Positions 12,928 to 58,493 of a stretch of DNA of 64,000 nt are shown piece by piece (within the stretch, counting starts at the first letter, position 1; each line of letters starts with the position of its first letter). Position numbers and translations under genes: made by a program. The stretch is taken from NCBI GenBank assembly GCA_900113425.1, contig FOZF01000002.1, positions 637,027-701,026 of the forward strand. The letters run 5' to 3'. The stretch is from Stenotrophomonas maltophilia (GTDB taxonomy: Bacteria > Pseudomonadota > Gammaproteobacteria > Xanthomonadales > Xanthomonadaceae). Under the pieces are notes generated by a model. The model did not search any database. It was not told the DNA's origin and was given only the letters and a program-made list of their open reading frames with translations.

Positions 12928-12997
12928 GCGCGGCTCCAGTGGGGGATGCGCGCAGCGTCGCAGCGCCGTCGTGAACGCCGGGTGGATCCGGCAATGT

Positions 12998-13066
12998 CGG
13001 CCGGGCATGGCCCGGTGCTCCCCAGTGCATGACGCCTCCGTTGGCACCGGGCCATGCCCGGCGGGC
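12998..13066. repeat. Pair of inverted GGGC-ATG-GCCC palindromes (degenerate REP dimer)
   Basis: Two palindromes face each other: GGCCGGGC-atg-GCCCGGTGC at 12999-13018 and GCACCGGGC-cat-GCCCGGCGGGC at 13044-13066. They resemble the GTAG elements elsewhere in the window but lack an intact GTAG. An inverted pair separated by about 25 bp is the usual dimeric REP arrangement. It lies between nadC and the DUF2272 gene. Confidence 0.55.
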
Positions 13067-13095
13067 AACGCGGCTGCGTCAGGCGTTACCGGGCC

Positions 13096-13947
13096 TCAAC
13101 CCGGGGGCGGGCCCAGCTTCAGTGACAGATCGATGGCCTGTACATGCTTGGTCAGCCCGCCGATGGAGATGCAGTCCACGCCGTCCTCCGCGATCGAGCG
13201 CAGGCCGCCCAGGCCGACGCTGCCGGACACCTCCAGCGGAATGCGGCCGGCGGTGATGCGTACGGCTTCACGGCGCAGGTCGGGGCTGAAATCATCGAGC
13301 AGGATGCGATCGCAGCCGGACTCCAGCGCCTGACGCAGCTGGTCCAGGTCTTCGACCTCGACCACCAGCGGCAACCGTGGCCATTGGCGACGCGCGGCCG
13401 CCACCGCAGCGGCCAGCGAACCGGCGGCACGGATATGGTTTTCTTTCAGCATCACCGTGTCGTACAGGCCGAAACGATGGTTTTCCCCGCCTCCGCAGCG
13501 CACTGCGTATTTCTGTGCAAGGCGCAGGCCGGGCAGGGTCTTGCGGGTGTCGAGAATGCGTGTGCCGGTACCGGCCACGGCGGCCACGTAGCGCGCCGTG
13601 GTGGTAGCGGTGCCGGACAGGGTCTGCAGGAAGTTCAGCGAGGTGCGCTCGGCGCTGACCAGGCTGCGGCTGCGGCCTTGCAGCAGCGCAAGTACCGTAC
13701 CGGCAGTAACGGACTCGCCTTCGGCGATGCGCCATTCGATGCGCACGTCCGGGTCGAGCGCGCTATGGGTGGCGTCGAACCACGGCCGACCGGCAATCAC
13801 CGCATCCTGCTTGCACAGCAGGTAGGCGCTGTCGGCCTGGTCGGGCAGCAGGGCGGCGGTGACGTCGCCGCTGCCCAGATCCTCCGCCAGTGCGCGGGCG
13901 ACATCGGCGGCGACGACGGCCGCATCCGGCGTCGGCAGCATGCTCAT
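13096..13947 (-). CDS. nadC: Carboxylating nicotinate-nucleotide diphosphorylase (quinolinate PRTase)
   Basis: A 283-residue enzyme that converts quinolinate and PRPP to nicotinate mononucleotide in de novo NAD synthesis. Recognisable motifs are the L-N-F-L-Q-T-L-S-G-T-A-T-T-T segment, D-T-R-K-T-L-P-G-L-R, G-G-G-E-N-H-R-F-G-L-Y-D, V-E-V-E-D-L-D-Q and the C-terminal S-G-S-V-G-L and I-S-I-G-G-L-T-K-H. The length is normal. Its ATG overlaps the stop of the upstream Trm112-like gene (4 bp). Confidence 0.97.
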   Translation of the reverse strand: MSMLPTPDAAVVAADVARALAEDLGSGDVTAALLPDQADSAYLLCKQDAVIAGRPWFDATHSALDPDVRIEWRIAEGESVTAGTVLALLQGRSRSLVSAERTSLNFLQTLSGTATTTARYVAAVAGTGTRILDTRKTLPGLRLAQKYAVRCGGGENHRFGLYDTVMLKENHIRAAGSLAAAVAAARRQWPRLPLVVEVEDLDQLRQALESGCDRILLDDFSPDLRREAVRITAGRIPLEVSGSVGLGGLRSIAEDGVDCISIGGLTKHVQAIDLSLKLGPPPG

Positions 13948-14213
13948 GCGGCCGGGAAGTCAGCGATCTGCGCGGTTGGAATGGCCTCCTCGGCCAGCAG
14001 CACCGGGATGCCGTCATCGACCCGGAACACCTGCTTGCGGTCACGGGTGACCAGGGCCTCGCGCAGCGGCTGTGCCAGCAGGTTGCCGTCGGCCTTGTTC
14101 ACCGCGCCGGCGGAAATCGCCTTGTTGAGGGCTTCCAGGCCCTTGCCATCCAGCAGGGACAGGGGCTGGCGGGTGTCCGGCGACACCAGCAGGTCGAGCA
14201 GCTTGCGATCCAT
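13944..14213 (-). CDS. Trm112/YcaR-like small protein lacking the usual cysteines
   Basis: An 89-residue protein. The start (M-D-R-K-L-L-D-L-L-V-S-P) and the end (V-F-R-V-D-D-G-I-P-V-L-L-A-E-E-A) match the Trm112/UPF0434 family. The zinc-binding cysteines of many members (C-P-x-C near the start and one more later) are absent; the segment reads V-S-P-D-T-R-Q-P-L and the protein has no cysteine. The central part is longer than in the 60-residue YcaR type. It is coupled to nadC by a 4-bp overlap. Function is unknown; a methyltransferase-partner role is only an analogy. Confidence 0.8.
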   Translation of the reverse strand: MDRKLLDLLVSPDTRQPLSLLDGKGLEALNKAISAGAVNKADGNLLAQPLREALVTRDRKQVFRVDDGIPVLLAEEAIPTAQIADFPAA

Positions 14214-14271
14214 GGTTCTTCGTCTTGCGTGGAAGACGGCTAGAATACGTCTTTAAGGCAGGTGACGGCCA

Positions 14272-14775
14272 ATGACCCCCAATCCGAACGCGCCGCTTGT
14301 CGGCATCGTCATGGGTTCCCGCTCCGACTGGGAAACCATGCAGCACGCCGCCCAGAAGCTTGAGGCCCTGGGTGTACCCTTTGAAGTGAAGGTGGTGTCC
14401 GCCCATCGGACGCCGGATGTGTTGTTCAGCTATGCCGAACAGGCGGGCGGACGCGGCCTGCGCGCGATCATCGCCGGCGCCGGCGGTGCCGCGCATCTGC
14501 CGGGCATGATCGCGGCCAAGACCGCGGTTCCGGTGCTGGGCGTGCCGGTGCAGTCCAAGGCGCTTAATGGCATGGACTCGCTGCTGTCGATCGTGCAGAT
14601 GCCGGCCGGCATTCCGGTGGCCACCTTCGCCATCGGCAATGCGGGTGCCTCCAACGCCGCGCTGTTCGCCGCCGCGATGCTGGCCAGCGACCAGCCGGCC
14701 ATCGGCCAGGCGCTGGAAGCCTTCCGCACGCGCCAGACCGAAGATGTGATGGCCCACGACGACCCGCGCCAATGA
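14272..14775 (+). CDS. purE: 5-(carboxyamino)imidazole ribonucleotide mutase
   Basis: A 167-residue class I PurE that converts N5-CAIR to CAIR in purine synthesis. Signature segments are [16 protein letters not shown] (the catalytic-loop His), [12 protein letters not shown] and [17 protein letters not shown]. It forms a purEK operon with purK, overlapping by 4 bp. A TAGAAT hexamer at 14241 may be the -10 element. Confidence 0.98.
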
Positions 14776-15917
14776 ACCTGACTGTCGGCATCCTCGGCGG
14801 CGGCCAGTTGGCCCGCATGATGGCCCTGGCCGGTGCGCCGCTGGGACTGCGCTTCGAACTGTACGATCCGGCGGCGGACGCCTGCAGCGGGCCGCTGGCA
14901 CCGCTCACCGTCGGTGCGTTTGATGACCGCCAGGCGCTGGCGGACTTCGCCGCCAAGGTCGATGTCGTGACGTTCGACTTCGAGAATGTGCCCGCGGACA
15001 GTGCGCAGTGGCTGGCCGAGCGGGTGCCGGTGTACCCGCCGCCCGCAGCGCTGGCTGTAGCGCAGGACCGCCTGAGCGAGAAGACGCTGTTCCAGCAGCT
15101 GGGCATTCCGCTGCCGCCGTTCGCCGATATCCGCAGCCGCGAGGAGCTCGCCGCGAAGGCGGCCGCGTTCGGCCTGCCGTGCATCCTCAAGACCCGGCGC
15201 CTCGGCTATGACGGCAAGGGCCAGTTCCGGTTGCGCAGCGAAGCCGACATCGACGCTGCCTGGCAGGCCCTGGGCGCCCAGGTCGAGCACACCGGCCTGA
15301 TCCTGGAGGGCTTCGTGGCTTTCCAGCGCGAGGTCAGCGTGGTGGCCGTGCGCGGCCGTGACGGCGGTTTCCAGGCTTGGCCTGTGACCGGCAACTGGCA
15401 TGTGGATGGCGTGCTTTCGGCCAGTGTGGCGCCTGCCGTGCTGTCGGCCGCCGAACAGGATGCCGCCATCGGCTATGCCCGTCGGCTGGCCGAGCATCTG
15501 CAGTACGTGGGCGTGTTCGCCCTGGAGCTGTTCTGCCGCGACGGCGAACTGCTGGCCAACGAGATGGCGCCGCGCGTGCACAACTCCGGCCACTGGACCA
15601 TCGAAGGCAGCGAGACCTCGCAGTTCGAGAATCATCTTCGTGCCGTGCTGGGCCTGCCGCTGGGCAGTACCCGCATGCTCGGCCACGCCTGCATGCTCAA
15701 CTGGCTGGGCGAGATGCCGGACCCGGCGCCGGTGCTGGCCCAGGCCAGCGGCCACTGGCACGATTATGGAAAGCAGCCCCGTGAAGGCCGCAAGGTGGGG
15801 CACGCCACGCTGCGCGACGACCAGGCCGGCGCACTGGCCACGGCGCTGGAACAGGTGGGCGAGGCACTGGGGCGCCAGCTGCAGGTCGCACCGGCCGTGC
15901 GGGCGCTGCGCGGTTGA
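14772..15917 (+). CDS. purK: 5-(carboxyamino)imidazole ribonucleotide synthase
   Basis: A 381-residue ATP-grasp enzyme that carboxylates AIR to N5-CAIR with ATP and bicarbonate, supplying PurE. The N-terminal [11 protein letters not shown] motif is diagnostic. The ATP-grasp core includes [13 protein letters not shown] and the metal-binding [23 protein letters not shown]. Its ATG lies within the purE stop. Confidence 0.98.
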
Positions 15918-16014
15918 CCGCGACGCGAAAGCGCAACGCTGTGGCGCGCCGATGCACGCATCGGCGCATCATCCAGGGTGATAGCGTGAGGCTCCTTTCC
16001 CCGGAGTCATCGTC

Positions 16015-16356
16015 ATGCTCGACTGGAACGCATACCGCAAGGAACTGAAGGGCCGTATCGGCGAGATTGGCAAGCTCTCGCCGGATACCATCAAAGGCTA
16101 CGCCACTCTGGCCAATGCCGGTGCCCAGACCAACCATCTCGATGCAAAAACCCGCGAACTGATCGCGCTGGCGGTCGCCGTGACCACCCGTTGCGACGGC
16201 TGCATCACGGTGCACGTCGATGCCGCGCTCAAGCAGGGCGCCAGCCGCGAGGAGATTGCCGAGGCACTCGGGGTGGCGGTTTCGCTCAACGCCGGCGCGG
16301 CACTGGTGTACTCGGCCCGGGTCATGGATGCGGTGGCGGCGCACGAGAGCGCGTGA
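16015..16356 (+). CDS. Carboxymuconolactone decarboxylase (AhpD-like) family protein
   Basis: A 113-residue all-helical CMD-domain protein. The AhpD-type redox motif is visible as C-D-G-C-I-T-V-H-V (CxxC followed by His), preceded by K-T-R-E-L-I-A-L-A-V-A-V-T-T-R. Such proteins are thiol peroxidases or peroxiredoxin partners. There is no ahpC neighbour, so the partner is unknown. It stands alone between purK and convergent sodB. Confidence 0.92.
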   Translation: MLDWNAYRKELKGRIGEIGKLSPDTIKGYATLANAGAQTNHLDAKTRELIALAVAVTTRCDGCITVHVDAALKQGASREEIAEALGVAVSLNAGAALVYSARVMDAVAAHESA

Positions 16357-16367
16357 TGCCCACTGCG

Positions 16368-16392
16368 TCGCCAGGCATGGCCTGGTGCTGCC
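16368..16392 (-). repeat. Degenerate GTAG-type palindrome
   Basis: GCCAGGC-atg-GCCTGGTGC between convergent genes. It has the same architecture as the other REP-like palindromes but a diverged sequence, with CTGC in place of CTAC. Confidence 0.4.
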
Positions 16393-16414
16393 CGGCTGCG
16401 CCCGGCGGATGCGC

Positions 16415-16993
16415 TCAGCGCAGCCGGCTCTCGGCGAATTCCCAGTTGGCCAGCTGCCAGAACGCCTCCAGGTAGCGTGCGCGGTCGTTCTGGTAGTCGG
16501 TGTAGTACGCGTGTTCCCACACGTCGCAGCACAGCAGCGGCGTGCTGTCGCCGGTCAGCGGGGTGCCGGCGTTGCGGGTGGCCTGGATGCCGAGCTGGCC
16601 GCCCGGATGCTGCACCAGCCACACCCAGCCGGAGCCGAACAGGCCCAGCGCGGTGCGGTTGAACTCCTCACGCAGGCGCTGCACGTCGCCGAACTGGCGC
16701 TTGACCAGCTCGCCCAGCCGTCCCTGCGGCTCACCGCCGCCGCGCGGGCGCAGGCACTGCCAATAGAAGCCGTGGTTCCAGGCCTGGGCCGCGGCGTCGA
16801 ACAGCGCGCCCTGGGCATGGCGGACGATCTCCTCCAGCGAGGCCTCTTCCCATTCGGTGCCGCGGATGCCGGCATTGACCGCATCGACGTAGGCACGATG
16901 GTGCGCGCCGTGATGCAGTTCCACGGTCTGCGCGGAAAGATGGGGCTGCAGGGAGCCGGACAGGTAGGGCAGGGCAGGCAGTTCGACGGGCAT
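16415..16993 (-). CDS. sodB: Superoxide dismutase, Fe type
   Basis: A 192-residue Fe/Mn-family superoxide dismutase. Metal ligands are visible: a His in H-H-G-A-H-H (27-32), H74 in A-W-N-H-G-F-Y-W, then Asp and His in D-V-W-E-H-A-Y-Y. The A-W-N-H-G-F-Y-W form (instead of N-H-S-L-F-W) favours the iron-type subgroup, but metal use cannot be proved from sequence. ATG at 16993 (MPVELPALPY) is the usual start; the longer frame to 17035 looks non-coding. Confidence 0.93.
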   Translation of the reverse strand: MPVELPALPYLSGSLQPHLSAQTVELHHGAHHRAYVDAVNAGIRGTEWEEASLEEIVRHAQGALFDAAAQAWNHGFYWQCLRPRGGGEPQGRLGELVKRQFGDVQRLREEFNRTALGLFGSGWVWLVQHPGGQLGIQATRNAGTPLTGDSTPLLCCDVWEHAYYTDYQNDRARYLEAFWQLANWEFAESRLR

Positions 16994-17114
16994 GGACAGG
17001 TTCGTGGACAGAGGGGCGGCGGCAGCCGGTTCCATCCGCTTACAATGGCGGCTACCTTGGGCAGTCTAGCCGACCATCGCGGTCGGTTTGTCCGGCGAAG
17101 CAAGGAGTGTGGTT

Positions 17115-17435
17115 GTGGCTGTAATGCAGCAAATCCAGGCCGAGGTCGATCGTTACCCGCTCGTGCTGTTCATGAAGGGCACCCCGCAATACCCGACGTG
17201 CGGCTTCTCCAGCCGCGCCGTACAGGCGCTGATGGCTGCCGGCGCCGTCTCCCTGCGCACCGTCAACGTGCTGGAGGAGCCGGAAATCCGCGCGAACCTG
17301 CCGCGTTTCTCCAACCTGCCGACGTTTCCGCAGCTGTTCATCAACGGGGAGCTGATCGGCGGCTGCGACATCATCATGGAGCTGTTCGAATCCGGCGAGC
17401 TCAAGCGCATCGTCGAAGAGGCGAACCTGGGATGA
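17115..17435 (+). CDS. grxD: Monothiol glutaredoxin, Grx4 type
   Basis: A 106-residue CGFS glutaredoxin that binds a 2Fe-2S cluster with glutathione and serves Fe-S cluster transfer and iron regulation. The active site is Y-P-T-C-G-F-S-S, preceded by V-L-F-M-K-G-T-P and followed later by P-T-F-P-Q-L-F-I-N-G-E-L-I-G-G-C-D. GTG at 17115 is chosen because AAGGAG (17102-17107) lies 7 bp upstream; ATG 17124 is possible but poorly spaced. Its stop overlaps the next start by 4 bp. Confidence 0.93.
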   Translation: MAVMQQIQAEVDRYPLVLFMKGTPQYPTCGFSSRAVQALMAAGAVSLRTVNVLEEPEIRANLPRFSNLPTFPQLFINGELIGGCDIIMELFESGELKRIVEEANLG

Positions 17436-18208
17436 GTGCGCAGCCATCGACGTCACCGACCAACGGGGCGCTCGATGGCCGTCCGTTGCAGGACCGCGTG
17501 GTGCTGGTGGCCGGTGCCGGTGGTGGCCTCGGAAGTGCCGCCGCGGTGGCCGCCGCCAGCGCAGGTGCGACCGTGGTCCTGCTGGGGCGCAAGCCGCGCC
17601 GGCTGGACCGCGTCTACGCCCAGGTGCAGGCAGCCGGTCCCGAGCCCCTGCTGTATCCGCTGGATCTGGAAGGGGCCGGTCCCGATGACTACGCCGACCT
17701 TGCCCAGGCGCTGCAGACGGAGCTGGGGCGACTGGACGGGGTCCTTGTCTGCGCCGCCCATTTCCCGGGCTTGACCCCGTTCGAGCTGGCCGACCCGGCA
17801 AGTTTCGCCCGCGCCGTCCACGTCACCCTGACCGCACCCGCCTGGCTGGCGCAGGCCTGCCTGCCGCTGCTGCGCCAGCGCGAGGATGCGGCGCTGGTGT
17901 TCACGGTCGACGCCCCGGAACGGGTGGGGCAGGCCTACTGGGGAGGCTATGGTGCCGCCCAGCATGGGCTGCGCGGTCTGATCGCCAGCCTGCATGATGA
18001 GCTGGGCCGCAGTCCGGTCCGGGTCAGCGGCCTGTACCCGGGCCCCCTGCGCACGGCCCTGCGCGCCCGCGCCTACTCGATCGACCAGGACCCGGCTGCG
18101 CAGGGACCCGAGGCCGCCGCCGCCGCGGCCGTGACCCTGCTGTCCAGCGCCGGCTCGGCTTGGCGGGGGCAGATCCTGGACGCAGGCAGCACACGCCCGG
18201 CAGGGTGA
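17432..18208 (+). CDS. SDR-fold protein (YciK-like) with lost catalytic residues
   Basis: A 258-residue Rossmann-fold short-chain dehydrogenase/reductase relative. The cofactor motif is intact (V-A-G-A-G-G-G-L-G near residue 26). The Y-x-x-x-K active site reads Y-G-A-A-Q, and the catalytic Ser segment, usually S-S-S, reads T-V-D-A-P. Both Ser and Lys therefore appear absent, while the Tyr remains. The overall layout resembles YciK-type SDRs. It is coupled to grxD (ATGA overlap). Function is unknown; it may be a non-catalytic nucleotide-binding protein or use altered chemistry. Confidence 0.88.
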   Translation: MSAQPSTSPTNGALDGRPLQDRVVLVAGAGGGLGSAAAVAAASAGATVVLLGRKPRRLDRVYAQVQAAGPEPLLYPLDLEGAGPDDYADLAQALQTELGRLDGVLVCAAHFPGLTPFELADPASFARAVHVTLTAPAWLAQACLPLLRQREDAALVFTVDAPERVGQAYWGGYGAAQHGLRGLIASLHDELGRSPVRVSGLYPGPLRTALRARAYSIDQDPAAQGPEAAAAAAVTLLSSAGSAWRGQILDAGSTRPAG

Positions 18209-18441
18209 AGGGCGACGTAAGGCGGAATGAAGATCCCGTCATGATTGCGTTGCGATCCGGTGCCGTTTGTCGCACAACCGTCACATTGATGGCGTAGCGT
18301 GTTAATCTAGTGTTAACCGTTATGGCTGCCTTCAGCCAACACGGTCGGGAACCCCAGATCACTGTCCAGTCGGCCACCCGCAAGGCCGCTTGGATGCGTC
18401 TTTTTTTCCGCCATCGCCAACTCGTATCGAGGCTACCCTAG

Positions 18442-21400
18442 ATGACCCACCCACTCCGGATGTCCAAGCTCACCCTTGGTCTCGTGGCCGCACTTGCTGC
18501 CGCTCCCGCCTTCGCCCAGAGCACCTCTGCAGGTGTCGGCGGCCAGGTCGTGTCCGCCGCAGGCCAGCCTGTCGCCGGTGCTGAAGTCACCATCACCCAC
18601 ACCGAGTCGGGCACCGTTTCGCGCGCCACGACCGATGCGTCGGGTCGTTACAACGCGCGCGGCCTGCGCGTGGGTGGTCCATACACCATCACCATCACCA
18701 AGCCGGGCGAAGGCACCAAGACTGAAGAGGGTGTCTACCTGAACCTGAACCAGGTCAACACCGTCAATGCCAACCTGACCGGCGACGTGGCGGCCACCAA
18801 CCTGGACGCCGTGAACGTTGTCGCCACCGCGGGCGGCCTGGACATCTTCAGCGCCACCAAGATGGGTACCGGCTCGAACGTGACCCGCGAAACGATGGAC
18901 GCGCTGCCGTCGGCCAACCGCAACATCCAGGACTACATCCGCCTGGACCCGCGCATCTCGCAGGTCAGCAAGGCTGACGGCGCGATCTCGGCTGGTGGTC
19001 AGAACACCCGTTACAACGCGATCCGCATCGACGGCATCAGTGCGTCCGATCCGTTCGGCCTGGGCTCCAACAACCTGCCGACCGAGCGTCAGCCGGTGTC
19101 GATGGATGCCATCCAGGAAATCAACATCGACCTCGCGAACTACGACACCACCATCGCCGGTGGTACCGGTGCGGTGATCAATGCCGTGACCAAGTCGGGT
19201 ACCAACGAGTTCCATGGCACTGTCTACGGTTCCTACCGCGACAAGGACATGGTCCGCGAGGAACTGCGTGGCGAGAAGTTCAACGGCTTCGAGGACGAGA
19301 AGACCTACGGCATGACCTTCGGCGGCCCGATCGTCAAGGACAAGCTGTTCTTCTTCAGCAACTACGAGAAGTACGAGCGTTCGGCCGCTGGCATCAGCCT
19401 GAGCGACACCCCGATCGGCAAGGGCACCATCACCCAGCAGCAGATCACCGACGTCCAGAATTTCCTGGGTGGACTCGGCTATGACCCGGGCAGCCTGACG
19501 GCACCGAACAGCAAGACCGAGATCGAAGAGTACGCGGTCAAGCTGGACTGGAACATCAATGAAAACCACCGTGCGGCCCTGCGCTACAACAAGATGGAGC
19601 AGAACGTCGTTCGCTTCCCGCAGGTCAGCACCAGTGCGATCTCGCTGAGCAACTTCTGGTACCAGCAGCCGACCGAATACGAAACCTGGATGGGCGAACT
19701 GTTCAGCGACTGGTCCGAGAACTTCTCGACCGAGTTCAAGGTCTCGCACAAGGATTACTCGGCCAACCGCGTTCCGCTGGTCGACATGCCTCAGATCCGC
19801 ATCCGTTCGGGTAACGACTCGCTGTACGTCGGTACCGAGCAGAACACGCACGTCAACATCGTGGAATCGAAGGAACTGAGCGCCTTCGGTGCCGGTACCT
19901 GGTACATCGGCGATCACACCGTCAAGTTCGGCTTCGATTACTCGAAGAACGACCTGATGAACTTCTACGGCCGCAACCTCAACGGCGTCTACGAGTTCAA
20001 CAGCGTCGAGGACTTCCTGAACGGTCGCATCGCGCGCTACCAGCTGCGTGCCCCGCGCGCCGGCGGCAGCCGCAGTGATATCCCGGCAGACTTCACCCTG
20101 AAGAACACCGGTGTGTTCGTCCAGGATACCTGGGCGATCAACTACAACCTGAGCCTGATGTTCGGTGTCCGCGTCGACATGCCTGACTTCAGCAGCCAGC
20201 GCCTGTACAACCCGCGTATCGAGCAGCTGTACGGCTTCAACAACACCCAGCTGGTCGACAAGAACCTGGTGCAGCCGCGCGTCGGCTTCAACTACACCTT
20301 CGACAGCGAGCGCCCGACCCAGCTGCGTGGTGGCGTGGGCCTGTTCGGTGGCGCTGCTCCGAACGTGTGGCTGGCGGGTGCCTACCAGAACACCGGCCTG
20401 AACTACATCGAGTACGACGAGCGCAACCTGACCAGCGGCTTCACCCCGGACGGCAACAATCCGTACATTCCGGCGGGTGGCCCCGCAGCTGCGCGCCAGA
20501 ACGTCGACATCATCGCCCCGGGCACCCGCCTGCCGTCGGTGTGGAAGGCCAACCTGGCGTTTGACCATGAGCTGCCGTGGTACGGCATCGTGGCGTCGGC
20601 CGAGGTGCTGATGACCAAGGTCAAGGACGGCATCTACTTCGACCGTCTCGACGTTTCGGCGCCGACCGCTTACGGCCAGGACGGTCGTGCGATCTACTGG
20701 GATGCGAATGGCCGTAATCCGGCAAACAGCCGCATGTCGGGTGGCACCAACTTCGGCATGACCACCGGCACCAACCGTGCCACCGACCGTGCCAACCGTC
20801 CGAGCGACATCGGCGACGTGCTGGTCATGCGCAACACCGACAAGGGTCGTGGTACGCAGGCCACCTTCTCGCTGGCCAAGCCGCTGACCGAGAACTGGGG
20901 CTGGTCGCTGGGTTACACCTATACCAAGTCCAAGGAAGTCAGCCCGCTGACCAGCTCGCAGAACACCTCGAACTGGAACAACACGCTGATCTTCAATGCC
21001 AACGAAGACGTGGCCTACGACTCGCGTTACGCGATCAAGGACCGCATCACCGGCACCCTGGAGTGGAAGCACAACTTCTTCGGTGACAACGCCACCCGCG
21101 TCGGCCTGTTCTACGAAGGTCGTTCGGGCCGTCCGTACAGCTACATCTTCTACAACGATGCCAACGGCGACGGTGCTACCACCAACGACCTGTTCTATGT
21201 GCCGAGCGGCCCGGGTGACGTGCTGTTCGGTTCGGTGGTCGGCGGTCGCTTCGTGCAGAGCGCGCAGATGGAGCAGGACTTCTTCAACTGGCTGGCGCAG
21301 AATCCGGAACTCGATGCCTACCGTGGCAGCGTGGTCCCGGCCAACTCGCACCGTGCCAAGTGGATCAACACCTTCGACGTCCGCATCAGCCAGGAGTTCC

Positions 21401-50126: not shown

Positions 50127-50202
<76 letters not shown>

Positions 50203-50210
50203 GATTCTGA

Positions 50211-50238
50211 AAGAGAGGCCTCTGGCCTCTCTTTTTTT
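50211..50238 (+). terminator. Intrinsic terminator after tRNA-Gly copy 1
   Basis: AAGAGAGGCC-tct-GGCCTCTCTT followed by T residues; a 10-bp stem. Confidence 0.92.
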
Positions 50239-50320
50239 ATGTCGTGCCGGCCCTGGATTGCCGGGGTTTCCGCGTCATCCGAACCTGAACGGAAAACGGG
50301 AATCGACGATGAGATTTCTG

Positions 50321-50339
50321 TTGACGCATCGCTGCAATC

Positions 50340-50349
<10 letters not shown>
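50321..50349 (+). promoter_or_regulatory. Promoter of tRNA-Gly copy 2
   Basis: TTGACG (50321-50326), a 17-bp spacer and CACAAT (50344-50349). The -10 and discriminator region is repeated upstream of copy 3. Confidence 0.75.
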
Positions 50350-50457
<108 letters not shown>

Positions 50458-50470
50458 GATTCAAGAATGA

Positions 50471-50489
50471 ACGCTCCCGCAAGGGGGCG
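50471..50489 (+). terminator. Intrinsic terminator after tRNA-Gly copy 2
   Basis: ACGCTCCC-gcaa-GGGGGCGT followed by TTTT; an 8-bp stem with one GU pair. Confidence 0.8.
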
Positions 50490-50603
50490 TTTTTCGTTTC
50501 CGGTCTGGCCGGACGCTCCTGCCTGCCATTGCGGACCGGGCCGAATGGATATCATCCGCTGTAGTCGTCGGGGTGACGCAGGGAGCGGGGCAAGGGCTGG
50601 CAG

Positions 50604-53600
50604 ATGGAGGCTGTGCACGAAACCAGGCAGGACGGTGGGCAGACCGCCTACCGGGCGTACCGTGATCGGATGCTGGAGCGTTGCCGGGGACGATCCCCGG
50701 GTGCGTTCGACGACGACATCGACGACGAGCGGACGGATGACCGGCCCGAAACAACACGCAACCGCATCCGCGCCTTCCGCATCGAAGTAGCCGATGCGCT
50801 GCACGGGCAGGAGCCGACCGTGGTCGCCGACGAAGACATGGCGCGCCGTGCGCTGGGGATTCCGGCGGACATCGCGCTGCATCCCGGCAAGGGCCGCGGG
50901 TGGCCGCTTCTGGTGCGGGTGTTCATGCCGTTCCCATGGGTGCTCAGTTACGTGCGACACGCACTGTCGCGGATCCGTACGTTCGAGGGCCGCCAGTACA
51001 TCCATCGCCAGTTCCACGCCCGGCTGTTCCTGCATGCGGAAGCACGCATCTACGGCCGCAGCCTGGACATCGCCCTGCGCCGCTTCGAAGCCACGTCCTG
51101 CGAAGAACTGCGGGCGCTGCAGCTGCGCGACGCTGGCTGGCTCATCGCTGCCCATCGCCTGGGCATCCGTCGGCTGGCGGACCTTGACCGGTGTGCTGGA
51201 CGGTCTGAAGCGCCTGGATGGTTTGCGCGGTGGATGGTGGATGAGGGCATCATCCAGCAGAAGGAAGAGCTGCAGTGGATGCAATCCGAGCAAAGGACAT
51301 GGAGCGTGGGCTGGCGGCCGCGGCGAAGGCAGCGCGAGCCGGTGCGGTTCATTGTGCGCCAGCTGATGAGCGTGGGCGTGGCACGGCCGCACCTTGCGCG
51401 CCTTCATGATGTCGACCTGGATGAATCTGATGCGGCGCGTCTGGCCGCGACTCTGAAACTGCTGGCGGGTGCCGGCGTTGCGCCCGTGCACGAGGTATTC
51501 GATTCTGCACGTCATCTGTTGTGGCGCACCCGGACGGAGACGTGGGCCTGGGTGCTGGGTGCAGCCGGCGCACGCACACCTGCGGATATCCGCACGCTGC
51601 GCGGCTACCTGGGGTTTCATGCTCCACCGCCCGACTGGATCGCCCATCACCTGATCGCGCGTGGTGCAGGCCTCCATGCGCTTGCCACCTGCTGTCGGTT
51701 GCTGGGCGAGCTGAGCGATGATGCCCAGGCCGAAGATGTGGAGGCTGCCATCGATCTCTTGCTGGCAGCACCTCATTGCCTGGACTTCACGCAGTTGGGT
51801 GCCTGCAGCCAGTATCTGCGACGGCCCGATCGGCTGGATCGGTTCCTGCAGGTGCTGGTCCGCCATGATCTCGGTGCAGCGGGCCACGTTGTTGCGTTCC
51901 AGGCCTGCTATCGCGTCGGTGACGCCGATCGCCTGGACGCGTGGTTGACCCTCCTTGCCGGGCGCACGGCGGGCATGGACGTCGACGTGCTGGTCGAATG
52001 GGTGGGACGAATGCTTGCACAGGGAAGCCTGGACGCGTTCCAGTACCTGCATTCGACCATTGCGCCTGCTGATTTTGCAGAGCTGCGGAAGCTGGAAGTG
52101 CTGGCTTCCCTCGGTCCGGAACTGCTGCGTTACCTGGTTGAAGACAAAGGCCTGGATTCGGTGAAGGCGCTGCGCGACTGGTACTTCGCTACCCGGGGCC
52201 TGCACGGGGTGGCCTGGTGGGGCGGCAACGATCCCGAACTGTGTCGGCTGCTGGCGGATGACGCCTTCCAGCGGCACAACTTCGGCTTCATGATGCAGAA
52301 CCATCGATGCGTTCTGGAGGTAGTCGAACGACGGGCGCACCAGGTGATTCCCCGCCCACAGAGAACCGTCGACACAGATGCCATGGCGCGCTACTACGAT
52401 GCGCTGGCCACGCAGCGTCGCGAAGAGATGGCGCGCCTCCTGCCGCAGTTGCCCGCGATGCTGGTGGGAACCGGCGGACTTCTGCTCGCATCGGTCCTTC
52501 GCGCAGGCGCAACCTCGACGGCAGCACTGCAGGACAGGCTGGCCCAGTTGCAGCCGGCGGTCGAGCAGTTGCTGGCCGGGCAGGGAACAACGTCAGCCGA
52601 GCTGGACGAGGTGGATGCGGAGCTCATTTCGATGGTCTACCGCACGTCCGTCGATGTCGTCCGTGGCAGTTGGGCGGCGGCACGCGGATTCCAGTCGCAC
52701 CTGGATGGATGGAGGCTGGAGCCGTTCCATCCGATGGCCTGGCAGCGCTCGATCAGAAAACGCACAGGCGTGCTGGAGCGCAGCAGCCTGCTGGCGCTGA
52801 AACGTGCCAGCGAACATGCAACGCGGTTCCAGCACGGCCCGGATGAGGGGCCGCGAACGTTCCGTGACCTGCGATCAAAACGGCTGCGGGATCCCGCGCG
52901 GGATCCGTGGTCGGTCTCCGCCCATCTCGGCCTGCTGCTGGCTGCCGCAGGCAATGATCCGGAGATCCTCCAGTGGCGGCGCAGCACCTTCAGCGAGGTC
53001 GCCAGCATGCCGGAGGACGGTGCGCAGACCAGCGAGTACCTGGAGCAGCTGGATCGGTTGTTCAGCAGCGCATTGCCGGATGCCCTCGATGCACATGCGC
53101 AGCGTTTTCTGCGTAGCCTCGCTTCCGATGACGCCGCGCAGCTGCTGCAACGGCTGCTGCCGCCATCGCCGTCCGTTGACAGTGCGGTACCGGTCATGTC
53201 ACTGGATCAGGCCTTCGCGCAGATGCGCAACAACGTTCTGGAGGTCTGCCTGCGCTGGGTGAAGCGCGAGAAGGGCAGGTATGGCCGTCCGGACCCTTCC
53301 GGATCGTGCACGCATCTGCAGGCGACGTTGACCAAGCACCCGGCGGCGTACTTCGCCAAGCATGCCGCCAATCTGTGCTCACGCGATCGCGTTGCGATGT
53401 GGCAGGAGGCGCGTCACGCGCACCTGGTGGTATTCGATCCGCGGCAGCGACGATTGGCGGGCATGGCCATGGTGAACATCGAGGTCGTGCCGTCCCTGCA
53501 CGCTTCCGGGAGCTGCCTCATCATCCGCGCGATCAATCCCATGGAAGACATGCTTGCCACGCATTGTCTCCGGTCCATCGTGGAGTCCTTCCTGGACATC

Positions 53601-53915
53601 GCCATCCAGATCGCAGAACGCAACGACCTGGTTGCGGTACTGATGCCCTGGCACAACGGGGCCCATCTGTTGTCGAACCTTCCCGGGATCGAGAAGTACC
53701 TCGAGAAGCAGTACCTGCAGAAGGCTCAGACGGCATCTGCCGACCGGTTTGGCGAGCTGATGGCCAACGACGACCTGCGCCGCCGCCCCCGCAAGGTGAA
53801 GGCCAGATTCTCGGCATTCGAGCAGGGAATGGAGATCGTCGGAACGCTGTATGCAATCTGGCAGCGGGCCCCGGTGGACCAAGCCGCGCGTCGCACGCCA
53901 TCGGAAGACGGTTGA
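50604..53915 (+). CDS. Unrecognised 1103-residue protein between duplicated tRNA-Gly genes
   Basis: A large soluble-looking protein; I recognise no family. It starts with an acidic/Arg-rich region (about 1-60), followed by a long Leu/Ala-rich helical body. A hydrophobic run at about 618-635 (M-L-V-G-T-G-G-L-L-L-A-S-V-L) could be a buried helix. The C-terminal region (about 925-1045) looks like a separate alpha/beta domain (H-L-V-V-F-D-P-R-Q-R-R-L-A-G-M-A-M-V, then L-I-I-R-A-I-N-P and V-A-V-L-M-P-W-H-N) and loosely recalls a GNAT-like fold. No signal peptide. It is the only gene between tRNA-Gly copies 2 and 3. Its stop codon lies within the -35 hexamer of the next tRNA promoter. Confidence 0.75.
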   Translation: MEAVHETRQDGGQTAYRAYRDRMLERCRGRSPGAFDDDIDDERTDDRPETTRNRIRAFRIEVADALHGQEPTVVADEDMARRALGIPADIALHPGKGRGWPLLVRVFMPFPWVLSYVRHALSRIRTFEGRQYIHRQFHARLFLHAEARIYGRSLDIALRRFEATSCEELRALQLRDAGWLIAAHRLGIRRLADLDRCAGRSEAPGWFARWMVDEGIIQQKEELQWMQSEQRTWSVGWRPRRRQREPVRFIVRQLMSVGVARPHLARLHDVDLDESDAARLAATLKLLAGAGVAPVHEVFDSARHLLWRTRTETWAWVLGAAGARTPADIRTLRGYLGFHAPPPDWIAHHLIARGAGLHALATCCRLLGELSDDAQAEDVEAAIDLLLAAPHCLDFTQLGACSQYLRRPDRLDRFLQVLVRHDLGAAGHVVAFQACYRVGDADRLDAWLTLLAGRTAGMDVDVLVEWVGRMLAQGSLDAFQYLHSTIAPADFAELRKLEVLASLGPELLRYLVEDKGLDSVKALRDWYFATRGLHGVAWWGGNDPELCRLLADDAFQRHNFGFMMQNHRCVLEVVERRAHQVIPRPQRTVDTDAMARYYDALATQRREEMARLLPQLPAMLVGTGGLLLASVLRAGATSTAALQDRLAQLQPAVEQLLAGQGTTSAELDEVDAELISMVYRTSVDVVRGSWAAARGFQSHLDGWRLEPFHPMAWQRSIRKRTGVLERSSLLALKRASEHATRFQHGPDEGPRTFRDLRSKRLRDPARDPWSVSAHLGLLLAAAGNDPEILQWRRSTFSEVASMPEDGAQTSEYLEQLDRLFSSALPDALDAHAQRFLRSLASDDAAQLLQRLLPPSPSVDSAVPVMSLDQAFAQMRNNVLEVCLRWVKREKGRYGRPDPSGSCTHLQATLTKHPAAYFAKHAANLCSRDRVAMWQEARHAHLVVFDPRQRRLAGMAMVNIEVVPSLHASGSCLIIRAINPMEDMLATHCLRSIVESFLDIAIQIAERNDLVAVLMPWHNGAHLLSNLPGIEKYLEKQYLQKAQTASADRFGELMANDDLRRRPRKVKARFSAFEQGMEIVGTLYAIWQRAPVDQAARRTPSEDG

Positions 53916-53930
53916 CGGCGTGAAGGAACT

Positions 53931-53940
<10 letters not shown>
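53912..53940 (+). promoter_or_regulatory. Promoter of tRNA-Gly copy 3, overlapping the upstream stop codon
   Basis: TTGACG (53912-53917), a 17-bp spacer and CACAAT (53935-53940). The TGA at 53913-53915 inside the -35 element is the stop of the 1103-residue protein. Confidence 0.75.
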
Positions 53941-54046
<106 letters not shown>

Positions 54047-54053
54047 GATTCTA

Positions 54054-54080
54054 CAGGGCCCCGGTTGGGGCCTTGTTTTT
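54054..54080 (+). terminator. Intrinsic terminator after tRNA-Gly copy 3
   Basis: CAGGGCCCC-ggtt-GGGGCCTTG followed by TTTTT; a 9-bp stem with one GU pair. Confidence 0.85.
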
Positions 54081-54201
54081 CTCCCGCCCTTGGCAAGGCG
54101 GGGCCCGTTGAGCCACAAGGCTCTTCGCGCAGTCAGAAAAGTGAAATCAAGTGTGAAATCGCTGGTGTGGGTTCCGGGCTTCCGGTATCATGACAGCATA
54201 C

Positions 54202-54277
<76 letters not shown>

Positions 54278-54283
54278 TGTTCC

Positions 54284-54309
54284 GACAGGCCCCATCGCGG
54301 GGTTTTGTC
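54284..54309 (+). terminator. Weak hairpin/T-run between tRNA-Gly copy 4 and tRNA-Cys
   Basis: A CCCC/GGGG core with GU-extended stem and TTTT at 54303-54306. It is weaker than the other tRNA terminators, so copy 4 and tRNA-Cys may be co-transcribed. Confidence 0.4.
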
Positions 54310-54344
54310 ATGTCAGGGGCTCCATTCCTGGCGCGCAGTACGTT

Positions 54345-54418
54345 GGCCTCATGGCAGAGTGGCTATGCACCGGATTGCAAATCCGTTTACAGCGGTTCGA
54401 TTCCGCTTGAGGCCTCCA
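54345..54418 (+). tRNA. tRNA-Cys(GCA)
   Basis: Acceptor GGCCTCA/TGAGGCC, anticodon loop TT-GCA-AA, encoded CCA. Last gene of the Gly/Cys cluster downstream of pgsA; no tRNA-Leu follows. Confidence 0.96.
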
Positions 54419-54427
54419 ATTGAAAAG

Positions 54428-54454
54428 CCCTGACTCCGGTCAGGGTTTTTTTTT
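54428..54454 (+). terminator. Intrinsic terminator of the tRNA cluster
   Basis: CCCTGAC-tccg-GTCAGGG followed by nine T residues; the strongest terminator of the cluster. Confidence 0.93.
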
Positions 54455-54721
54455 GTCTGATGTTTGGTGGTGCCACCAAGGCGGCGTGGGATCTGCGCAG
54501 CCAGATAACCGACTGCTTGCCGCAGCTGACCTCCGCCTGGGCGACCGAGTGGGTCACCACCTCGACCGACATTCGGCGCGCGGTGCGCATTCATTACCTG
54601 CAGAAGCTCGTCTTCGGTAGCAAGATGTACCCTGCTGTAGGCATCAAGCAATCGGCTGGAGCAGGTCCTTGCGGTTGAACATCACGACGTTTACTGATGC
54701 AGGCGATCCGACCTCCGTGAG
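54455..54721. other. Region without a supported gene
   Basis: A 267-bp stretch between the tRNA-Cys terminator and the accessory island. A 72-residue plus-strand frame (54460-54678) and a 100-residue minus-strand frame exist, but neither has a Shine-Dalgarno or recognisable composition, and the minus one runs through the tRNA-Cys gene. It could be remnant DNA of an integrated element. Confidence 0.4.
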
Positions 54722-55159
54722 CTAGGGAGTTTTTGTAGGAAGCTCACCCGCAACAGGTTTCAGAACTCCTTGCTCGAATGACAGCGGAATTTTCAGTTCG
54801 CCAGAAGGTGTTGAAATCCGAAGAGTCAGGAACTGCGCCGTTGATGTGCAGGAAGACGTAATCCTATTGAACGAAGAAAGCTCAGGTATCAACGCGTTGA
54901 CGGCGTTGAGCTGAACCGAGGAAACGGACTTTCCGTCGATCTTCAACTCGGTGAGGCGAGCTGGCCGAGGTGATTCAATCGTCAACTCAAAAGTTGAAGT
55001 TCCGCATTTCAGGCGATGTTGAGATGTATAGCTGGAGGCCGAACCCCCGTCCTCGAGCCGGATCTCTCTAAGGTCAGGTCCCTGCGCTGCAGCGTGAGCC
55101 CAACCTGCCGCGCTACCCATCGCAAAAATCAGAATGGTCCATGGCGCCTTGGCTCTCAT
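54722..55159 (-). CDS. Small secreted protein, candidate immunity protein
   Basis: A 145-residue protein with a signal peptide (I-L-I-F-A-M-G-S-A-A-G-W-A-H-A-A-A, cleaved about residue 25). The mature part is predicted beta-rich, with two cysteines (L-K-C-G-T and S-S-C-T-S) that could form a disulfide in the periplasm. It starts within the stop codon of the double-glycine-leader gene (4-bp overlap), so the two are translated together. It is lower in GC than the core genes. No family recognised. The arrangement suggests a periplasmic immunity protein for the upstream exported peptidase-like protein; this is inference. Confidence 0.75.
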   Translation of the reverse strand: MRAKAPWTILIFAMGSAAGWAHAAAQGPDLREIRLEDGGSASSYTSQHRLKCGTSTFELTIESPRPARLTELKIDGKSVSSVQLNAVNALIPELSSFNRITSSCTSTAQFLTLRISTPSGELKIPLSFEQGVLKPVAGELPTKTP

Positions 55160-55845
55160 AGATTGCTCCCCAACGTCTCCGCGTCACGATCATTGAAGTC
55201 GTACTCGCGTGTTACCCCGTCTGGGCCGATGATGTAGTGACGGAAAGTCTCTGGATTCATGCCATTGTCGCGCAACAGGTCGGCCGCGGCCCAGTCCCCG
55301 CCACCGTATGGTACGCCGTCGACAACCCGGTTGTCGGAAGGATATTTGTTGACCTCGAGTTCCTCGGGGTCGAATGCGTTTGCCGGATGTGAGTGGATGA
55401 TGCCAACCACGTCGCTGGCCTTGATTCCCGCATCTCCCAGCGGGAGGCTCAACTGATCCGGTGCATTAACCGCTCCATATGTCAAAGCCGTCGCCTTGAT
55501 CTCACCCGTCGCCGGATCTCGATAAAGCACGGCGCCAATCTCTTGGTTCAGATAGCCGGGATCGGCCTTGATCAACGCTTCCACGCTTCGAGCCACCGTA
55601 TCGACCGCCCCGTCAATTTCCTCATATGGGGTCAGCGACGAACCGCCGCCTCCGCCATCTCTATCGCCGGGATTGGGGAAGGGGTCGCAAGGATCTGTAA
55701 AGTCTGGTGGACCGATGTCCGGCCAACCGTCGTCTCCAGGTGGCCGGACATCAATCGGTGGCAGATCGGTCGTGTCTACCTGCGCACCGCCCGAGATCAA
55801 AGCCAGTTCTTCTGACGACAGGGGGCGGATTCCGTCCTTTGACAT
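55156..55845 (-). CDS. Double-glycine-leader protein with JAMM/MPN-like peptidase motif
   Basis: A 229-residue protein. Residues 1-20 form a class II bacteriocin-type leader (L-S-S-E-E-L-A-L-I-S-G19-G20) of the kind cut by C39-peptidase ABC exporters. A Pro/Asp/Gly-rich linker (about 28-72) follows. The C-terminal domain (about 75-229) has E102 (Q-E-I-G-A-V-L-Y), then V-G-I-I-H151-S-H153-P and D184 (Y-G-G-G-D-W), the spacing of a JAMM/MPN metallopeptidase or DUF4329-like toxin domain. A strong Shine-Dalgarno (AAGGAG) precedes the ATG. No exporter gene is in the window. Likely an exported antibacterial effector; this is inference. Confidence 0.8.
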   Translation of the reverse strand: MSKDGIRPLSSEELALISGGAQVDTTDLPPIDVRPPGDDGWPDIGPPDFTDPCDPFPNPGDRDGGGGGSSLTPYEEIDGAVDTVARSVEALIKADPGYLNQEIGAVLYRDPATGEIKATALTYGAVNAPDQLSLPLGDAGIKASDVVGIIHSHPANAFDPEELEVNKYPSDNRVVDGVPYGGGDWAAADLLRDNGMNPETFRHYIIGPDGVTREYDFNDRDAETLGSNL

Positions 55846-56446
55846 GGGTAGCTCCTTCTAACGAAAGCGACAGGATCAACGTGTGGGCGATGATTCGGCG
55901 AGGCGGAGGGCTAGTCTGATCTGCAGCACTCAAGCAAGAACGGTGCAGTGGGTCTATCACCCCCGGCCATTCAAGGGTTGGTTCAATATTTGTTCATTTC
56001 TTAAGCGACTCCGCGCCGAACCTCTTGGTCCGGGCGCCGCCCTGCCGCAGCCCCCATCTGCGAAGCAGTGCCCGTTCTGCGGCACACACTGGACGCGCAG
56101 GTACTGGCCAACCCCATCGCGTGAGACCGCCCGATGTCGCCGAACGGGGTAGGTGGATATCTGGTGTTGCCGGATCCGGGACCGATGGCAGCTCGACCCG
56201 GGGGCGCGAACGCCAGGGGCGAGTCAGGCTGGACCCTGAAATTCGCGGGAATTGCTGATTTCGTCAAATGACCGGTGCCGGTCAGGGCTTTTTTTGCGCC
56301 GTCACCGCGCGCCGCCAAGCGTGCCTGACATCCAGTCTCAGCGGCCTACGACATGCGAAGGGGGTATGGTCAGTGCAGAGGCCTTCGGGAGCGGCAATGG
56401 CAGGCAGCGACACTATGGCGAGTGGCGAACAGGCGGCGGATCGGCA
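55846..56446. other. Region without a supported gene
   Basis: About 600 bp of mixed composition between the island genes and the next plus-strand gene. Frames on both strands are short, lack ribosome-binding sites and look non-coding. The only clear element is a terminator-like hairpin at 56269-56295. The left 150 bp must contain the promoter of the double-glycine-leader gene, but no convincing hexamer pair was found. Confidence 0.5.
56269..56295 (+). terminator. Orphan intrinsic terminator
   Basis: TGACCGG-tg-CCGGTCA followed by GGGCTTTTTTT on the plus strand. No supported plus-strand gene lies upstream, so it may end transcription of an unseen RNA or of a lost gene. Confidence 0.65.
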
Positions 56447-56716
56447 ATGAGCAAACCCGCAACGGAAGTACGCTGGCTGACATTCCGGCTGATGAACGGA
56501 CAATCGATCGGCCCGGAGCGCCTGCGCGACGGCTGGAGCACCGCTTCGGAAACCCGCCACTGCGGGGTCCGGCGCGAGGCCATCGAGGGAGCAGGTGTGG
56601 TCTACGCGCTGTACGGGCCTGCCAACCTGGCATCGCCGCGTCGTGCCGAGATGCGCATGCGTGAGTTCCTGATGAGCAGCGGCTACACCTTCACCATGGG
56701 TACGCTGGGCGGCTAG
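56447..56716 (+). CDS. Small hypothetical protein
   Basis: An 89-residue protein starting M-S-K-P-A-T-E-V-R-W-L-T-F-R-L-M-N-G-Q-S. Basic, without signal or membrane segment, ending Y-T-F-T-M-G-T-L-G-G. The frame is open upstream to 56252 but those residues look non-coding; ATG 56447 has only a weak GGCGGA upstream. Its stop overlaps the convergent hydrolase stop by 4 bp. Not recognised. Confidence 0.5.
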   Translation: MSKPATEVRWLTFRLMNGQSIGPERLRDGWSTASETRHCGVRREAIEGAGVVYALYGPANLASPRRAEMRMREFLMSSGYTFTMGTLGG

Positions 56717-57801
56717 CGCATCGCCGCAGCCCTCAGGGCCGCGACCACCTGTTCTGCGGAGAAGCCACAGTGGCCCGTACCTGCTGCGGGCAGTACGCGC
56801 GGCAGGGGCGTCGCACCCGCGTGCGCGGCCAGTTGCGGATAGCGTTCCTGCATGCGGGGCGCGATGGTGGGATCGTCGTTGTTGAACTGGATCACCAGCG
56901 GCCGCTTCAGTGCCCCGGTCAATCCGAGTGTTTCGCGCACACGCGCCTGTGCTGCGGGAATGGCAGCGATGCGCTGCACCCGCGCATTGAACGCGACATC
57001 ATCACCGAATCCACGGTAGACGACGCCGATGTTGCTGGCTGGCATGCCGCCACTGCGCGTGGCCAGTTCGTGCAGGACCAGGGCGTGCAGGCTGATCGTT
57101 CCGGGCAGCGCATCGGACGCGACCTGCAACTGCGTGGCCAGCAGCGCAGCGGAGTGCGGCGCGCGTTGCAGCGCGTTGGCGATGCCTTGGTACAGCTCGC
57201 CCTGTGGCACCGAAGCGGCTTCGCTGGACGCCAGGCCAGCGGCAGGCAATCCCTCGGCATGCGGGAAGAAGTAGTCGAACGCCACTACGGTGGTGAGCAG
57301 TTCGCCGGCCAGCTGCTCGCCTGTCAGGTTGGCACCGCACAGCGAAACACCGCCGGCGTAGTGGGCCGGATGCCGTTCGAGGCTGGCGAGGGCCACCGCG
57401 CCGCCCATCGAGAAGCCGAGCAACCAGGTGTTACGCACGCCCTGCAATCCGGCCAGCGTGTGTTGACGCAGGCGCTCCACATCGTTGACGGCATCGGCCA
57501 CTGCCCACCCCTGGCTTGCGTAGGCGCTCTGTGCGACCGCGTAGCCGGCTGCCAGCAGAGGCGCGGTCGCCTCGTTGGCGGCCATCGGCGATTCGCGTGG
57601 CGTGCCCACGGGTTCGTAGCCGTGGGCCAGCATTACCAGATCTCCGTTCCACTCCGCGGGGATGTCCAGGCGCCACGGCGCACCCTGCAGCTCGCCACTG
57701 AGCATGCGTGGCGCGGCAGGCGGTGCCGCCAGCAGCGGCGTGGAAGGTAACGCCAGGGCCAGTGCCAGGGTCAGCCGGAGCAGGGCGCGCATCGTGTTCA
57801 T
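56713..57801 (-). CDS. Secreted alpha/beta hydrolase
   Basis: A 362-residue protein with a signal peptide (L-R-L-T-L-A-L-A-L-A-L-P-S-T-P-L-L-A-A). The nucleophile elbow G-F-S-M-G-G carries the catalytic Ser near residue 144. An oxyanion-side L-A-H-G-Y-E and a C-terminal G-H-C-G-F with the catalytic His fit the alpha/beta hydrolase fold. The substrate is unknown. ATG 57801 is chosen; ATG 57792 is three codons in. Confidence 0.88.
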   Translation of the reverse strand: MNTMRALLRLTLALALALPSTPLLAAPPAAPRMLSGELQGAPWRLDIPAEWNGDLVMLAHGYEPVGTPRESPMAANEATAPLLAAGYAVAQSAYASQGWAVADAVNDVERLRQHTLAGLQGVRNTWLLGFSMGGAVALASLERHPAHYAGGVSLCGANLTGEQLAGELLTTVVAFDYFFPHAEGLPAAGLASSEAASVPQGELYQGIANALQRAPHSAALLATQLQVASDALPGTISLHALVLHELATRSGGMPASNIGVVYRGFGDDVAFNARVQRIAAIPAAQARVRETLGLTGALKRPLVIQFNNDDPTIAPRMQERYPQLAAHAGATPLPRVLPAAGTGHCGFSAEQVVAALRAAAMR

Positions 57802-57865
57802 CCGGGCAGGTGATACGCCGAGCATAGAACCGGCCGCGGTGCCGTGCCCGCTGCAATGCGTCAGG

Positions 57866-58360
57866 TCATGGGGCCGTCGCCGGCCCGCCGCAGGCGACGC
57901 GGTGCATCGGAAATTCCATGGCCTGTGCCGGATCGTCCTGTGCGATCTCGATACGTGCGTGCAGGCGCTGCCCATTGATGCGGCGATAGGTGATCCGTTG
58001 CGGGAAGTCATTGGCCGGGTTCTCGAAGACGACCTCGTCGGCCTCCATGCGGACGGCGTTGAAATCAGTGGCGTTGCGGCCGGAGGGCAGCGCGGTGAAC
58101 ACCAGCCGCCCATCGTCGTGCTGGCGCAGCTGCATGAACTCGAAACCCACGGTGCGCCCGTCGCGCAGGCTGCGGCTGCTGCCGAACATCGTTCCGCCGG
58201 CCACGGTGGACCACTGCTCACCCGCTCCGGGGGGGTGCCCATCCAGCTGCCAGCAGCCGGAGAGCCAGCCCAGCTGTTCAATGTCCGCGGTTGCGGCGGC
58301 GTGTCCATCGGCGGCGAAAAGCAGCAGAGGCAACACGGCGCGGGCGATCCGGTTCGACAT
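57866..58360 (-). CDS. DUF6265-family secreted protein
   Basis: A 164-residue protein with a signal peptide (L-P-L-L-L-F-A-A-D-G-H-A-A-A). Diagnostic segments are L-G-W-L-S-G-C-W-Q-L-D, E-Q-W-S-T-V-A-G-G-T-M-F-G-S-S-R and F-E-N-P-A-N-D-F-P-Q-R-I-T-Y. These are lipocalin-like beta-barrel proteins of unknown role, frequent in proteobacteria. ATG 58360 has GGAG 6 bp upstream. It is divergent from an AraC regulator. Confidence 0.85.
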   Translation of the reverse strand: MSNRIARAVLPLLLFAADGHAAATADIEQLGWLSGCWQLDGHPPGAGEQWSTVAGGTMFGSSRSLRDGRTVGFEFMQLRQHDDGRLVFTALPSGRNATDFNAVRMEADEVVFENPANDFPQRITYRRINGQRLHARIEIAQDDPAQAMEFPMHRVACGGPATAP

Positions 58361-58493
58361 CGTGGGCTCCATGCGCGGGACGGTGGCCCCTGTATAGCGC
58401 CGCATAGCGTTGGCGGCCAGCGCCGCACGCAATGACGCCGAATTCGATACGATCTGCGGGTTCTTCCCCCTTCTGCTTGCCCTGGAGTCCGAC

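Follow-up and report, generated by a model that had tools for sequence, protein, structure and literature searches.

A predicted antibacterial effector-immunity pair of Stenotrophomonas maltophilia with a C39-type export leader and a JAMM-like toxin domain

Introduction

JAMM toxin domains have been catalogued since 2012, with a nuclease function put forward as a guess (Zhang et al. 2012, PMC3482391). The two adjoining genes considered here lie in a 64,000-nucleotide stretch of Stenotrophomonas maltophilia (assembly GCA_900113425.1, contig FOZF01000002.1, positions 637,027 to 701,026; hereafter the window) and encode a 229-residue toxin candidate, with a double-glycine leader and a JAMM-like domain, and a 145-residue partner with a predicted signal peptide. 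Judged from sequence, they probably form an antibacterial effector-immunity pair that would be exported by a C39-type type I secretion system and act in the periplasm of the target cell. An earlier note on this DNA had proposed an exported toxin with periplasmic immunity, and the exporter, the linkage of the partner and relatives carrying the XVIPCD domain lend support to that proposal. Its claim of novelty fared unevenly: the toxin domain itself is of an already known kind, near Tox-JAB-2/DUF4329, but a JAMM toxin exported by a C39 system or by the Xanthomonadales type IV secretion system (X-T4SS) was not found described in open-licence full text, where catalogue entries and candidates of the type VI secretion system (T6SS) did occur. 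A T6SS study of Tox-JAB-2 is reportedly that of Ma et al. in 2017, as cited in PMC9635880. Three elements look new: the C39 export route for such a toxin, the leader family with its several cargoes, and the family of periplasmic immunity proteins.

The pair shares with Tox-JAB-2/DUF4329 (PF14220; Zhang et al. 2012, PMC3482391) the E, H[S/T/N]H, S, D signature, the C-terminal position of the toxin domain in leader-bearing forms, and an adjacent immunity gene. In contrast, the window protein falls below the Pfam cut-off, its predicted periplasmic partner with two cysteines stands in place of Imm-NTF2-2, a nuclease function appears unlikely here, and neither the C39 route nor XVIPCD export is among the polymorphic-toxin export systems listed in that work (PMC3482391). 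The domain by which the bacteria-killing X-T4SS recognises its effectors is the XVIPCD (PMC11253643). The X-Tfe/X-Tfi pairs of that system are matched by Lysobacter relatives in which the toxin bears an XVIPCD and the lipoprotein partner is a homologue of the window partner, whereas no XVIPCD was found in the window protein or in a search of its own genome. Class II microcins are alike in leader shape and exporter type; they are small peptides (below about 10 kDa), whereas the window product has 209 residues after G20 and a predicted enzyme domain, the candidate immunity is soluble and secreted, and one leader is borne by several unrelated C-termini. Small peptides are the known cargo of bacteriocin-type C39 exporters in Gram-negative bacteria; in the present case, such an exporter appears to send out larger modular enzyme toxins together with cognate immunity.

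The gene pair and its JAMM-like domain

Both open reading frames (ORFs) occupy the coordinates and strand given in the earlier note (Table 1), and the stop codon of the toxin candidate and the start codon of the partner share 4 bp (ATGA), as claimed. The residues singled out beforehand, the G19-G20 of the leader, E102, H151-S-H153-P and D184, are all present, as are the predicted signal peptide of the partner, seen as an N-terminal hydrophobic segment, and its two cysteines. The N-terminus has the shape of a double-glycine leader, and the pattern L[ST]xx[ED][LMI]xx[IV]xGG has a single match among 422 window ORFs, at this very N-terminus, against an expectation of 0.005 from shuffled N-termini. 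Among 150 relatives searched, the genome itself was found to hold both the window copy and a paralogue, 67% identical in protein, on another contig. Between the toxin paralogues, nonsynonymous divergence (dN) is ~0.25 and synonymous divergence (dS) is >2, with dN/dS ~0.1; since dN is far below dS, the two frames are genuine, constrained genes. Conservation and linkage together rule out a chance or artefactual origin of the pair.

Table 1. Coordinates of features in the window and in the exporter cluster (locus L008) of the same genome
Feature	Position	Strand	Basis or remark
Window: toxin candidate, 229 aa	55156..55845	(-)	leader + linker + JAMM (Tox-JAB-2-like); ORF, homologues, purifying selection
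Window: double-glycine leader, residues 1-20, MSKDGIRPLSSEELALISGG	55786..55845	(-)	C39 cut after G20 predicted
Window: Pro/Asp/Gly-rich linker, residues 21-70	55636..55785	(-)	sequence; low confidence/disordered in model
Window: JAMM-like domain, residues 75-229	55159..55623	(-)	invariant columns, sub-threshold Prok-JAB/DUF4329, fold match
Window: immunity candidate, 145 aa, signal peptide + C52/C104	54722..55159	(-)	4-bp overlap, linkage, invariant Cys
Window: tRNA-Cys gene	54345..54418	(+)	adjoins insert; intact at empty site too
Window: left direct repeat CCGGTCAGGGTTTTTTTTTG	54436..54455	.	tRNA-Cys terminator region; compared with empty site in G150
Window: right direct repeat CCGGTCAGGGCTTTTTTTG	56278..56296	.	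compared with empty site in G150
L008: partner	7975-8397		4-bp overlap with toxin, as in window
L008: JAMM toxin	8394-9089		67% paralogue
L008: leader protein B	9358-9990		followed by secreted bilobed aspartyl-protease-like protein, 10040-11359
L008: leader protein C	11993-12547		followed by second bilobed aspartyl-protease-like protein, 12616-13905
L008: HlyD adaptor	13954-15231
L008: exporter, Peptidase_C39/ABC_membrane/ABC_tran	16013-18568		Pfam 1.1e-28, 3.5e-29, 1.1e-32

Eight toxin positions (E102, H151, H153, P154, P169, S170, D184 and W185) are invariant among eight diverse proteobacterial relatives. The toxin carries the JAMM/MPN+ motif E...H[ST]H...S...D, the middle residue of H-x-H being S, N or L among the eight relatives, and the SxxD spacing is retained in Lysobacter and widened in the window protein by an insert found in Stenotrophomonas. 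The residues that never vary belong to the JAMM site. The most fitting description of the domain is that it diverges from, but is related to, Tox-JAB-2 (PMC3482391), short of certified DUF4329 membership. In the JAB-type families named beforehand for such a search, the matches found for the window protein lie below threshold (Prok-JAB, 0.02-0.04; DUF4329, 0.08-0.23); weak DUF4329 matches occur in 8 of 11 relatives, and the best DUF4329 value among relatives is 2.2e-6. The JAMM/MPN fold is the best structural match obtained, a weak one. With a model built on eight sequences and of modest confidence (predicted local distance difference test, pLDDT, of 60), Foldseek against the PDB placed BRCC36, Rpn11 and CSN5 at the top, interspersed with cytidine deaminases (best E 1.8e-3, probability 0.92), and most of the top matches were JAMM/MPN or deaminase-fold proteins. 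Unlike these JAMM/MPN+ enzymes, with which it shares the metal-ligand motif, the window protein is predicted to be exported and has no ubiquitin context.

Other JAB-like genes were encountered as well. A scan of a viral collection with the JAMM profile gave a sole match (L052, 5896-6621), phage-tail-like, with a JAB followed by an NlpC/P60-looking region. Elsewhere in the same genome (L072, 1285-1860 and 1857-2336; G000:C6 near 219319), another JAB-like gene (DUF4329, 1.7e-4) overlaps a lipoprotein gene by 4 bp. In two gammaproteobacterial loci (L066, 161-1443; L068, 430-2335), DUF4329 domains end proteins with barrel-like repeats and are followed by a different small, secreted, two-cysteine partner, and periplasmic immunity may thus be common for DUF4329. 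Sequence searches of NCBIfam, PADLOC and the PDB with the pair found nothing, and neither did searches of plasmids and phages. Pfam matches of the pair to Turandot and HsdM_N were dismissed as short and low-scoring.

The exporter and its leader family

A C39 exporter was sought in the genome and found inside the cluster of the paralogue, on the other contig. In addition to the two JAMM toxins, the search found two proteins that match toxin residues 1-69 only and have different C-termini, and the paralogue and both of these lie in the one cluster with the HlyD adaptor and the exporter, the stronger of two C39 matches in the genome (Table 1). The leader proteins B and C have unrelated, beta-rich C-termini, each downstream secreted protein has two DTG motifs, and B and C could be additional toxins whose immunity is protease-like. 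Across the genus, the leader family occurs in 4 of 91 genomes and the HlyD adaptor in exactly those four, a coincidence of 1 in 2.7 million by simple combinatorics with relatedness ignored.

Related arrangements recur elsewhere. For leader proteins B and C, relatives occur in the genus designated g53 (L019, L026, L027). In Stenotrophomonas rhizophila (L009, 8169-9491), the type-C aspartyl-protease-like gene is kept, as an orphan immunity gene would be, and a type-C leader protein was not found in the cluster region as retrieved. Another Stenotrophomonas locus (L010, 13888-15803) contains DUF6932 and Fic-looking genes.

Relatives and delivery routes

A family-wide search together with the genome collection, for which a five-sequence JAMM alignment was used, an 11-sequence one being insufficiently conserved, recovered homologues from Lysobacter, Arenimonas, another member of the Lysobacteraceae, Caulobacterales, Brevundimonas and one Burkholderiales contig. 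One weak match (L031) looked spurious and was dropped. Two Lysobacter proteins begin with classic double-glycine leaders (MRELSQQELELITGG and MQQLSQEEMELIAGG). In Lysobacter sp. ISL-50, the genes run toxin, partner, Fic, DUF6932, C39-ABC, HlyD and DUF4915, and the link to an exporter is therefore not confined to Stenotrophomonas; a second Lysobacter metagenome-assembled genome is similarly arranged. At a Lysobacter locus (L033, 6583-7980), the C39 exporter has a Fic-domain gene and a DUF6932 gene as neighbours.

Of the refuting outcomes listed in the earlier note and examined here, most did not occur, but one did: several homologues lack the double-glycine leader. The Arenimonas homologue has a Sec-type signal-like N-terminus instead, and four Lysobacter homologues (L023, L024, L028, L064) are leaderless. 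Those lacking the leader keep the partner, and four carry an XVIPCD; it lies at the C-terminus in L023 (7.9e-28) and L028 (2e-10), and in G418 and G238 it shares the frame of the JAMM homologue. The Lysobacter genomes with an XVIPCD-JAMM protein have 21-27 XVIPCD matches each. An XVIPCD combined with a retained partner strengthens the toxin reading, and, judged by domain architecture, these relatives mark the pair as a putative weapon against other bacteria.

The cluster and its relatives also bear on whether the protein is a toxin at all. It could instead be a peptidase exported to process other proteins, such as the remaining leader proteins, which it might mature at the cell surface while the partner served as inhibitor or chaperone; the leader and exporter are indeed common to two beta-rich proteins with aspartyl-protease-like neighbours. 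The Lysobacter cassette, fused to XVIPCD and paired with a lipoprotein partner, nevertheless has the layout of a killing effector; moreover, the window copy stands alone on an insert that varies between strains, and in one genome (G027) the exporter and a single leader cargo occur without a JAMM protein. A processing role accordingly has a slim chance of being correct.

The secreted partner

The expectation that homologues would keep the downstream gene was borne out: a secreted partner adjoins the JAMM homologue in 16 of 17 loci, across all delivery routes. The exception, in which a partner was not found, is Burkholderiales L048, a 4-kb contig on which the C-terminus is probably broken. Partners are always secreted or lipoprotein-like, X-T4SS effector loci included, and C52 and C104, the only cysteines of the window partner, are invariant in the aligned set. 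Between the paralogues, partner identity is 50-51%, against 67% for the toxin, and the partner has thus changed faster. When a profile made from non-T4SS partners only was scored against a list that included 1732 other ORFs, the top of the ranking consisted of T4SS-linked partners and one Caulobacterales partner (L022, 7.7e-7; L023, 1.8e-5; L021, 3.4e-5; L028, 0.0029; L024, 0.0038; L047a, 0.009), with the first unrelated ORF at 0.097; the Brevundimonas partner, at only 0.17, was assigned by position, length and cysteines. The partner domain is apparently doubled in L021 and L022. Its model (pLDDT 73) is an all-beta fold with one helix, for which a fold search gave no confident structural relative; no Ig or NTF2 assignment was made.

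Because the immunity protein is secreted in every delivery context, the toxin would be expected to work in the periplasm, which points away from the older nuclease guess. Several observations nevertheless weigh against a periplasmic JAMM effector delivered by a C39 exporter. The window pair has no adjoining exporter, its DUF4329 score is 13.4 bits against a gathering threshold of 28.6 (28.1 in the best relative), the structural resemblance to JAMM folds is weak, the calls of signal peptides and lipoboxes were made by eye, and a 21-kDa type I-secreted protein would have to cross the outer membrane of the target. To these is added the proposal that Tox-JAB domains are nucleases, the toxin JAB domains having lost the ubiquitin-tail groove and resembling RadC (Zhang et al. 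2012, PMC3482391). In keeping with it, RNase effector is the annotation given to Salmonella Rhs-DUF4329 proteins and one JAMM relative has a weak RadC match, and it is conceivable that the domain is a nuclease bound for the target cytoplasm, trapped en route by the periplasmic partner. As is established for effector-immunity systems, a cell that makes a nuclease toxin needs immunity in its own cytoplasm, the site of synthesis; all cognate partners here, those of X-T4SS loci included, are exported or lipoprotein-like, and a nuclease is on balance unlikely.

Proposed mechanism

For the effector-immunity reading, the 229-residue precursor would be cut after G19-G20 by the C39-peptidase ABC exporter, supplied from the other contig beside the paralogous pair, and the cleaved toxin would leave with the HlyD adaptor via a type I secretion channel. 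Having entered the target cell, the mature domain, a putative zinc-binding JAMM hydrolase, would attack a target in the competitor's periplasm, the likeliest being a peptide or isopeptide bond in the envelope. The natural JAMM substrate is a peptide or isopeptide bond, and the Gram-negative cross-link, which joins D-Ala to the side-chain amine of meso-diaminopimelate, is isopeptide-like; because of this resemblance, the peptidoglycan cross-link is offered, by analogy, as a first guess. In the periplasm of the producer, the 145-residue partner would neutralise toxin that returns or arrives from siblings. The toxin/immunity cassette would appear to switch delivery routes, between the leader and the XVIPCD of the X-T4SS.

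A bolder proposal is tentative and somewhat doubtful as a whole: that the Xanthomonadaceae possess a modular antibacterial weapon system whose interchangeable toxins (the JAMM type and at least two beta-rich ones with bilobed aspartyl-protease-like guards) share one double-glycine leader and a dedicated C39 exporter, the JAMM member being a new cell-wall toxin that hydrolyses (iso)peptide cross-links of peptidoglycan, with its cassette traded with the X-T4SS arsenal. The small domain and small inhibitor make the activity directly testable, and the X-T4SS version provides a ready killing assay in Lysobacter.

An insert beside tRNA-Cys

The lower GC of the pair and its place beside a tRNA cluster, both remarked on beforehand, were confirmed: GC is 59.0% in the toxin gene and 53.2% in the partner gene, against 66.0% for the window, and four tRNA-Gly genes and tRNA-Cys lie to the left. 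In a conspecific genome (G150), the left (52000-54454) and right (56279-58392) flanks join with a 19-bp overlap beside tRNA-Cys (L059, 4384-4402), and the window pair therefore sits on a 1.84-kb insert. The insert is bounded by direct repeats, CCGGTCAGGG(T/C)TTTTTTT, and no integrase was seen within it; G150 lacks the insert and keeps the cluster copy.

Absence from a conspecific genome, together with lower GC and the lack of an adjoining exporter, could mean that the leader-JAMM gene was copied beside the tRNA and is a decayed or orphan copy, no longer used. Both frames are intact, however, with all active-site residues present and a dN/dS of ~0.1, and an exporter is encoded in the same genome, which leaves decay with a very slim chance indeed. 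Further left in the window (50127-54277), two near-identical tRNA-Gly(gcc) pairs flank an ORF of 1103 aa (50604-53915), an arrangement also present in G150.
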